A stretch of DNA of 63,161 nt, taken from positions 1 through 63,161 of the forward strand of contig JAGYNO010000005.1 in assembly GCA_018399955.1 (NCBI GenBank), given 5' to 3'. How positions within the stretch are numbered: the stretch's first letter is position 1; every line of letters starts with the position of its first letter. Below are positions 55,500 to 56,724 of this stretch, piece by piece. A program made the position numbers and the translations under genes. This stretch comes from Halanaerobium sp. GTDB taxonomy: Bacteria > Bacillota > Halanaerobiia > Halanaerobiales > Halanaerobiaceae. The notes under the pieces were generated by a model that was not told the DNA's origin, searched no databases, and worked only from the letters and a program-made list of their open reading frames with translations.

Positions 55500-56027
55500 T
55501 TAGACTGCTTCATTTTTAGGTGAGCTGTATTCTATATCCATTGCAAAGTCAACTACACTGAAAATCACCACTGCTGCCGCTGTATTTAATCCAGCTGCAG
55601 GTAAAACAACAGTTGTAAATAAAATACCAAATGGAGCCGGTAGACCAACTAAAAAAGTTGCTATACCTAAAAATAAACTTCCACTAATTATTGTGCCAAC
55701 TGCTGTAGTAATTCCAGCAGTAACTCGTTTTGAGGCAAATTTAGTGATTAAAGGTATCAAATTGTAAACTATTACAAAAGTAAGTAATTTGTCTACTATA
55801 TTTGGTATCTGTCCCCCCGGAAAAGTAGTGGTTAAAGCTGTGAATAAACCTGTGGATAAAGCTACTAAAAAACCAAGTTTAATATCCCTTTTAATAATCA
55901 GAATAATAAACATCATGGTTAAAGTAAGATCAGGTTTCATTCCCATAACCAATGGAGGTGTCAAACTCCTCAAAATCATTGCAACTGCCACCAACAAAGC
56001 CGCCTGTGCTAAATCTCTAATACTCAT
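55500..56027 (-). CDS. trpP: TrpP-type tryptophan transporter, downstream copy
   Basis: 175 residues, five to six hydrophobic segments. PPLVMGMKPDLTLTMMF, TTTFPGGQIPNIVDKLLTF, FLVGLPAPFGILFTTVVLPA and GLNTAAAVV match the Bacillus TrpP (YhaG) pattern. Imports tryptophan across the inner membrane (family knowledge). The leader has (G/U)AG triplets in 5-nt register over the ribosome site and start codon (see regulatory entry), strong support for the assignment. Adjacent paralogue lies 76 bases upstream in the same direction. Confidence 0.85.
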   Translation of the reverse strand: MSIRDLAQAALLVAVAMILRSLTPPLVMGMKPDLTLTMMFIILIIKRDIKLGFLVALSTGLFTALTTTFPGGQIPNIVDKLLTFVIVYNLIPLITKFASKRVTAGITTAVGTIISGSLFLGIATFLVGLPAPFGILFTTVVLPAAGLNTAAAVVIFSVVDFAMDIEYSSPKNEAV

Positions 56028-56075
56028 CTCAACTAATCTCTCCTTTTTATTTATTTGCTATTCTCAACTAAGCTA
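56009..56075 (-). promoter_or_regulatory. TRAP-type (G/U)AG repeat leader of the downstream trpP copy
   Basis: On the reverse strand, triplets TAG, TAG, GAG, TAG begin at 56075, 56070, 56065, 56060, and GAG, TAG, GAG, GAG begin at 56040, 56035, 56030, 56025, each block in exact 5-nt spacing. Two further TAG triplets begin at 56019 and 56011. The second block runs from the Shine-Dalgarno through the start codon, so bound TRAP would block translation. Confidence 0.75.
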
Positions 56076-56103
56076 AATTTTTAAAAATAAAATTAATTAT
56101 ACA

Positions 56104-56613
56104 TTATTGGACTTCCTCTACATCCATTGCAATATGAACAACACTAAATACAATAACAGCTGTTACTGTATTGACTGCTGCTGCCGGAAGTACTACTGTA
56201 GTAAATAATACTACAAATGGTCCAGGAAGACCAACAATTAAAGCTGCTGTTCCAAGAAAAATTATACCACTTATTATAGTTCCTAATCCTGTTATAATAC
56301 CTGCTGTTACTCTGTGAGGCATTAAATCAATTACATATGGTATTAGTGGATAAACTATTAAAAATGTCAATAATTTATCAACAATATTAGCTATCTGTCC
56401 ACCAGGAAAACCAGTTGTCAGTGCTGTAAATATACCAGTCGAAACTGCAACTAAAAACCCTAACTTGAAATCTCTTTTGATAATCAATAAAATAAACATC
56501 ATCGCTAAAGCAAAATCAGGTTTCATTCCCATAACAAGTGGTGGAAAAAAAGCGTGTAAAATAAATCCAACTGCAACTAATAGAGCTGCTTGTGCTAAAT
56601 CTTTTGTACTCAT
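56104..56613 (-). CDS. trpP: TrpP-type tryptophan transporter, upstream copy
   Basis: 169 residues with the same landmarks as the neighbouring copy: PPLVMGMKPDFALAMMF, TTGFPGGQIANIVDKLLTF, LIVGLPGPFVVLFTTVVLPA and VNTVTAVIV. The copies are clearly paralogous and differ mainly in loops and the C-terminus. This gene is first in the pair, with a perfect consensus promoter and the strongest TRAP-like repeat set. Both probably import tryptophan; one could have shifted to a related indole or aromatic compound. Confidence 0.87.
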   Translation of the reverse strand: MSTKDLAQAALLVAVGFILHAFFPPLVMGMKPDFALAMMFILLIIKRDFKLGFLVAVSTGIFTALTTGFPGGQIANIVDKLLTFLIVYPLIPYVIDLMPHRVTAGIITGLGTIISGIIFLGTAALIVGLPGPFVVLFTTVVLPAAAVNTVTAVIVFSVVHIAMDVEEVQ

Positions 56614-56667
56614 CTAAACTCATCTCCTTTTTTTGTCTGCTAAACTCATCTTTTCTCAACTCAACTA
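56609..56667 (-). promoter_or_regulatory. TRAP-type (G/U)AG repeat leader of the upstream trpP copy
   Basis: Reverse strand triplets in perfect 5-nt register: TAG 56667, GAG 56662, GAG 56657, AAG 56652, GAG 56647, TAG 56642, then after an A-rich gap GAG 56626, GAG 56621, TAG 56616, GAG 56611. Nine fit (G/U)AG. The second block covers the Shine-Dalgarno and overlaps the ATG. The binding rule (about 11 triplets, two-base spacers) is the established TRAP rule. Confidence 0.82.
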
Positions 56668-56682
56668 AGATTTATAAATCTT
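56667..56682 (-). other. 5' leader hairpin ahead of the TRAP-type site
   Basis: AAGATTTATAAATCTT is a perfect palindrome that folds as AAGATT-TATA-AATCTT at about 10-25 nt from the predicted transcript start and abuts the first triplet. Bacillus trp leader RNA has a 5' stem-loop at the same place; the parallel is suggestive only. Confidence 0.5.
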
Positions 56683-56695
56683 TTAGATTGATATT

Positions 56696-56724
56696 ATTAT
56701 ATATTATATGCAAATTTATGTCAA
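56696..56724 (-). promoter_or_regulatory. Consensus promoter of the trpP pair
   Basis: Reverse strand TTGACA (56719-56724), exactly 17 bases, TATAAT (56696-56701), both perfect. Predicted start near 56689, leaving a leader of about 75 nt that contains the hairpin and all the triplets. Confidence 0.85.

Follow-up and report, generated by a model that had tools for sequence, protein, structure and literature searches.

A probable pair of split TRAP operators on tandem tryptophan transporter genes in Halanaerobium, and candidate TRAP targets across Halanaerobiales

Main finding

Two tandem genes for the tryptophan transporter TrpP in a Halanaerobium genome are each preceded by NAG triplets that extend over the Shine-Dalgarno sequence and the start codon. 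Each of the two leaders is very probably an operator for TRAP (MtrB), at which tryptophan-loaded TRAP would block translation. From sequence comparison, we infer the binding, its dependence on tryptophan and the block of the ribosome. The genes lie in a stretch of 63,161 nt (contig JAGYNO010000005.1), which is referred to as the window. A first-pass annotation of this DNA had proposed a TRAP-type site on one trpP gene. This proposal is supported by an mtrB gene in the same genome, by conservation of the triplet register in relatives and by the co-occurrence of triplets and mtrB.

A TRAP site is defined by about 9-11 NAG triplets with short spacers of 2-3 nt (PMC4347634, PMC3184956). In B. subtilis, TRAP directly blocks ribosome binding at trpG, trpP and ycbK (PMC11255114); such a block is also described for TRAP in general (PMC4347634). 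TRAP control of trpP is thus known from B. subtilis; the present case is a further member of this kind, to which it adds a split site and candidate new targets.

The two trpP leaders

The features of the tandem locus are as follows, in the direction of transcription.

56719..56724, minus strand: -35 box TTGACA of trpP copy 1
56696..56701, minus strand: -10 box TATAAT, with a 17-nt spacer from the -35 box
about 56688-56689, minus strand: predicted transcription start of the copy 1 leader
56667..56682, minus strand: possible 5' hairpin AAGATT-TATA-AATCTT, 6 bp, -2.5 kcal/mol
56640..56667, minus strand: upstream run TAG GAG GAG AAG GAG TAG, 2-nt spacers
56627..56639, minus strand: A-rich gap of 13 nt between the copy 1 runs, with similar gap lengths in relatives
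56609..56626, minus strand: downstream run GAG GAG TAG GAG over the Shine-Dalgarno sequence and ATG
56613-56611, minus strand: ATG of trpP copy 1, from the open reading frame
56104..56613, minus strand: trpP copy 1, tryptophan transporter TrpP, 169 aa (PF17099, E 8.5e-46)
56058..56075, minus strand: copy 2 upstream run TAG TAG GAG TAG
56017..56045, minus strand: copy 2 downstream run AAG GAG TAG GAG GAG, with a TAG after 3 nt, over the Shine-Dalgarno sequence and ATG
56027-56025, minus strand: ATG of trpP copy 2
55500..56027, minus strand: trpP copy 2, TrpP, 175 aa (PF17099, E 1.1e-45)

The copy 1 leader has ten triplets, nine of which are GAG or TAG, and all spacers within its runs are 2 nt. 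It agrees with the definition given above and has a single gap of 13 nt. The count of nine and the perfect TTGACA-17-TATAAT promoter (56724-56719 and 56701-56696, minus strand) agree with the first-pass annotation. A strict 5-nt register of six and then four triplets had also been described. This holds inside each run, but the gap breaks the continuity: the starts of triplets 6 and 7 are 16 nt apart. The 5' hairpin that had been part of the proposed element can form, but 34 of 300 shuffled sequences are equally stable, which is within chance, and it is not found in all relatives. It is the weakest part of the copy 1 element, and we do not retain it as a defining part on the basis of the window alone.

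The site of copy 2 was not part of the first-pass proposal, and it is as good as that of copy 1. A 12-nt gap lies between its two triplet runs. Copy 2 starts 76 nt downstream of copy 1, and no promoter was found before it by the pattern used for the trpP leaders. Thus, both copies are likely carried by one mRNA as two separately repressed genes.

Compared with B. subtilis trpP (yhaG), the gene and the regulator family are the same, and the site likewise lies in the translation initiation region. The details of the yhaG site used for this comparison are general background. The Halanaerobium case differs in that it comes from another bacterial order, has two runs with a 13-nt gap, may have a hairpin in front and consists of two tandem copies, each with a site.

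The triplet register compared with chance

The first-pass annotation had argued that such a register would rarely arise by chance, and the following scores bear this out. GAG and TAG were scored as 1, AAG as 0.5 and CAG as 0.25, with spacers of 2 or 3 nt, and the best two chains within 103 nt were taken. Copy 1 reaches 9.5 and copy 2 reaches 9.25, while the next best place on either strand of the window has 4.75 and the other gene starts scored in the window have at most 4.0. None of 2000 dinucleotide shuffles attains the score of copy 1 (shuffle mean 3.2), and none of 2000 attains that of copy 2.

The available 1.87 Mb of the own genome (75.9% complete) was searched with patterns. On both strands together, six DAG triplets with strict 2-nt spacers occur once, in the copy 1 leader; the reversed control has no match. 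The less demanding pattern of four KAG triplets has five matches, as has its reversed control. Four of the five are in the leaders of trpE, trpP1 and trpP2.

Across the order, the six-DAG pattern was found at 42 places in 16 of 38 genomes when overlapping matches in one run are counted separately, compared to 11 in the reversed control. By position or by reading, 29 of the 42 precede a gene for trpE, trpP, trpB, trpD or DAHP synthase. The remaining places are within coding frames (e.g. G008:C39, G024:C3 and G026:C25) or before genes that lack an identification. Among the latter, two identical runs were seen in genome G005.

The TRAP gene and the search for anti-TRAP

The TRAP gene on which the proposal depends is present. 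It was found in the own genome (G000:C78) as an open frame of full profile length, matching PF02081 with E 1.3e-37 and 128.7 bits (cut-off 21.3). All 15 PDB sequences matched by its product are MtrB/TRAP. The RNA-binding residues of TRAP have been tabulated as F32, E36, K37, D39, K56 and R58 (PMC3184956). All six are conserved in the Halanaerobium protein (mapped by eye). When 30 of the 33 MtrB matches of the order were aligned, leaving out three without a locus, the sole change among these residues was at R58, in G023 (also mapped by eye).

Within Halanaerobiales, mtrB is present in 32 of the 38 genomes. TRAP control outside Bacillales had been called little described. The gene itself is not rare in the phylum, as it is present in 200 of 398 sampled genomes and 142 of 266 genera, a sample that may include Bacillales. 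In the literature, nothing was recognised on TRAP in Halanaerobiales; this search fell short of key subscription papers, and a prior mention is possible in the comparisons of trp regulation in Trends Genet. 2005/2007.

Anti-TRAP (rtpA) had also been suggested as a partner to look for, and a PF15777 search produced no convincing small free-standing protein in the 38 genomes of the order. There are matches in 33 of the 38 genomes, 7 of them above the cut-off. However, 37 of the 38 matches are in open frames of 340-404 aa, which we take to be DnaJ-type proteins. The match in the own genome is of this kind (386 aa, below the cut-off), and the control set gives PF15777 matches too, E. coli among them. 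One frame of 78 aa in G032 matches below the cut-off. Because the matches lie in long frames, they were dropped and anti-TRAP is not claimed.

Six genomes (G014, G021, G022, G001, G031 and G032) have mtrB and no match to trpE. In some genomes, TRAP thus seems to outlive the trp operon for which it is known.

trpP leaders across the order

There are 30 trpP loci in the order, and 29 leaders were scored. L054 was dropped, being a fragment of the broken gene in G036. The trpP of this genome (L054/L060/L142) has stop codons within the frame and is either a broken gene or an assembly error.

The register is kept across Halanaerobiales, where its loss in close relatives would have spoken against the proposal: in genomes with mtrB, 25 of 26 leaders score at least 5.0. 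The exception is G006, which has mtrB, a divergent TrpP (E 1.4e-11) and a leader with a score of 4.0, reached by 140 of 2000 shuffles. The three leaders from genomes that lack mtrB all belong to family f7 and score at most 3.0.

In most leaders of the order with mtrB, the downstream triplets start at -18, -13, -8, -3 and +2 relative to the A of the ATG. Both runs could be placed next to each other in L038, L041, L043, L046-L048, L050-L052, L056-L058 and copy 1 of the window. In these leaders, the triplets that flank the gap start 13 to 16 nt from one another, so that about two triplets are missing, and the complete site takes up about 10 to 12 positions of the register. The scorer placed the runs differently in L035, L044 and L049. 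In L044 (trpP of G010), a long extra stretch was seen by eye between the runs, perhaps a natural insertion into the site. In L031 (trpP of G008), triplets are followed by a terminator-like hairpin and by further triplets over the start, as read by eye. This mRNA may possibly combine attenuation with a translational block.

A promoter of the copy 1 shape was found by pattern search in 19 of the 29 leaders. In the g5 leaders L036, L039 and L040, the predicted transcription start is 26-27 nt before the ATG, and the mRNA would hold only the downstream run. A 5' hairpin for which at most 12 of 300 shuffles are as stable is present in L035, L041, L043, L046, L047 (the same sequence as L046), L048, L050 and L056. 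L049 was left out of this comparison. There is no hairpin of note before the triplets in L037, L038, L051, L052, L053 and the g5 leaders.

Tandem trpP pairs occur four times (window 55500-56613, G015, G016 and G019). In the tree, one member of each pair belongs to a clade of six rows (support 100/100), and the other groups among the remaining g1 and g3 rows (89/85). The order of the members varies. Naming the copies by position as two lineages was rejected, as there is no clade by position (3 changes each). A single old duplication plus reordering would fit.

T-boxes in genomes without mtrB

TRAP and T-boxes are alternatives for the control of trp genes in Gram-positives. A T-box (RF00230) with a UGG specifier on trpP would serve the same gene and the same amino acid as the TRAP site described here. 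It senses uncharged tRNA, whereas TRAP senses free tryptophan via a protein.

In family f7, mtrB is absent from all five genomes, two of which are more than 90% complete. Three of them have trpP, and the leaders (L032, L034 and L142) carry T-boxes above the Rfam gathering score, with a UGG codon at what we take to be the specifier position. In all three, a short frame in which two Trp codons stand next to each other (MKILHKNYFNMDTWWQISL in L034) was seen between T-box and trpP; its start is less clear in L142. It resembles the peptide encoded in the leader of the anti-TRAP operon in B. subtilis and is a possible second sensor of tRNA charging.

The association was then examined in the phylum, where 111 of 398 sampled genomes have TrpP matches. 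The test covers 68 leaders from 67 genomes with TrpP at E 1.6e-30 or better; seven previously covered genomes were excluded, and 37 with weaker matches are outside the test. All 36 leaders from genomes with mtrB score at least 5.25, and 31 of the 32 from genomes without an mtrB match score at most 3.75. The remaining one (G119) scores 10.75. By leader, this is 36/36 against 1/32 (Fisher P 1.5e-18); by family, it is 19/19 against 1/13 (P 6e-8), with f51 on both sides, and kinship is not fully corrected for in either value. The G119 assembly has 450 contigs and its genus mate G154 has mtrB, so that the gene was likely overlooked in G119.

T-boxes at the gathering score were found in none of the 36 leaders with mtrB and in 19 of the 32 without. 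A looser pattern adds five to the latter; the rest show neither. In this sample, T-boxes on trpP thus occur only in genomes without an mtrB match. All 28 T-boxes inspected (26 before trpP and two on an operon in G033 and G037, see below) have TGG after AA at match position 82-93. In L250, a TwoAYGGAY match is located between T-box and trpP.

Named records provide 14 trpP loci outside Halanaerobium, of which L144 was dropped (54 nt of leader). Those with mtrB all score 6.0-10.0 (8/8), and those without all score 1.5-3.5 and have T-boxes (5/5). One of these records, L142, is order genome G036 again, and overlap of the named records with the phylum sample is possible.

The trpE leader

The trpE leader of the own genome (L085) is outside the window. 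Like the TRAP attenuator of the B. subtilis trp operon, it combines NAG triplets (eleven, with spacers of 2-3 nt) with a terminator and an alternative fold that competes with it. The terminator (-9.5 kcal/mol) follows the triplet chain. When its 3' arm is omitted, the 5' arm instead forms pairs with bases of the triplet chain (-10.0 kcal/mol). The minimum-energy fold of the whole leader already contains the terminator, and the antiterminator appears only when the 3' arm is left out.

Visual inspection of 26 trpE loci showed triplets ahead of the gene in 25; none was seen in the 420 nt viewed at L081. The position varies by eye as well, the run being further upstream in L085 and over the start in L095 (G006). 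At about 1340-1385 of L085, a second terminator-like hairpin of the type GGTCAGGC...GCTCTGGCCGTTTTTT was seen by eye near trpE, downstream of the TRAP attenuator. It recurs at a like place in other g1 trpE leaders (also by eye). No Rfam match was obtained for it in L085, L077 and L092.

Candidate further targets

Triplet runs were found before trpB in L100, L126, L167 and L260 (gene by TIGR00263, above cut-off) and before trpD in L107, L114 and, by reading, L115 (gene by TIGR01245, above cut-off). Genome G031, to which L167 belongs, has mtrB and no trpE or trpP match. In L120 (G005), six in-register triplets cover the Shine-Dalgarno sequence and start of a DAHP synthase gene (PF00793, 271 bits), the entry gene of the aromatic pathway. 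A triplet run before nadA was read by eye in G011 (L262).

In G021, eight GAG/TAG triplets (score 7.75) and a terminator-like hairpin precede an operon (L259, G021:C5, reverse strand). Its first gene codes for a TIGR04076/ferredoxin-type protein. The operon also codes for an aldehyde:ferredoxin oxidoreductase (AOR; PF01314, 418 bits) and an NhaC-like transporter (below cut-off). To our knowledge, no such operon is known as a TRAP target. G033 and G037 hold homologues of this first gene, 60-61% identical and followed by an AOR-like frame. In these two genomes, which lack TRAP, the homologous operon carries UGG T-boxes. Genome G032 has mtrB and a homologue that is 64% identical, and no triplets were seen by eye in the 420 nt viewed before its AOR operon. 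The operon was therefore rejected as a more general target and is a candidate in G021 only.

Taken together, we lean towards the following broader reading, with some reserve. TRAP would be common well beyond Bacillus, and trpP would be controlled by either of two interchangeable tryptophan sensors, TRAP where mtrB is present and often a UGG T-box where it is absent. The regulon of Halanaerobiales would be wider than that of Bacillus, with split operators, and would extend to trpB, trpD, DAHP synthase and the AOR operon of G021.

Proposed mechanism and alternatives

When tryptophan is plentiful, rings of tryptophan-loaded TRAP would bind the NAG triplets of the leaders. Since the last four triplets of copy 1 cover the Shine-Dalgarno sequence and the ATG, a bound ring would exclude the ribosome, and the transporter would not be made. 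When tryptophan is scarce, the ring would release the RNA, and both trpP copies, each repressed through its own site, would be translated.

Triplets might also arise as a by-product of a purine-rich Shine-Dalgarno sequence and coding start (GGAG, ATGAG), with no regulator involved. A GAG is indeed part of a good Shine-Dalgarno sequence, and the counts of four KAG triplets and of their reversed control in the own genome are equal (5 and 5). This reading predicts equally good runs in the absence of TRAP, which were seen in one of 32 such leaders of the same gene, the other 31 being those with scores of at most 3.75. The upstream run of copy 1 is clear of the Shine-Dalgarno sequence, and the other scored gene starts of the window remain at or below 4.0. 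We therefore consider it very improbable. Even less credit is due to the idea that trpP is under a T-box or some other RNA element, with the triplets as relics. Relatives that lack TRAP do carry T-boxes on trpP, but no RF00230 match reaches the gathering score in the window, nor does one in the 36 phylum leaders with TRAP. Moreover, the register is conserved, and the open frame of mtrB covers the whole length of the profile.

TRAP might control trpP by transcription attenuation, instead of the ribosome block or besides it. The trpE leader of the own genome holds the parts of an attenuator, the trpP leader of G008 appears to have a terminator-like hairpin between its runs, and TRAP of B. subtilis can induce termination without an attenuator (PMC3913778). 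In the trpP leaders of the window, however, no terminator-like stretch was seen by eye between triplets and ATG, and the final triplets lie on the Shine-Dalgarno sequence and the ATG itself. Attenuation at trpP thus appears unlikely, and a translational block by TRAP is the preferred reading.

How TRAP accommodates the gap is less certain. TRAP rings can have 11 or 12 subunits (PMC3184956). In the g1 leaders with both runs placed, runs and gap together correspond to about 10 to 12 positions of the register, which is what one ring would cover, and a gap of about two triplets would fit a ring that bridges the linker or loops it out. From this, we infer one ring over both runs. It is possible, with a lower but appreciable probability, that no single ring spans the gap, and that two rings bind or the downstream run alone matters. 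The g5 mRNAs, which are predicted to lack an upstream run, would fit this, as would the runs of G010, which by eye are far apart.

Significance

The finding opens a textbook case from Bacillus to tests in anaerobic halophiles and, through comparison, in the whole phylum. TRAP sites and T-boxes exclude each other almost completely at trpP, which is a natural experiment on how a cell replaces a protein that senses free tryptophan by an RNA that senses tRNA charging. TRAP in an order without a convincing anti-TRAP also raises the question of how tRNA charging is sensed there.
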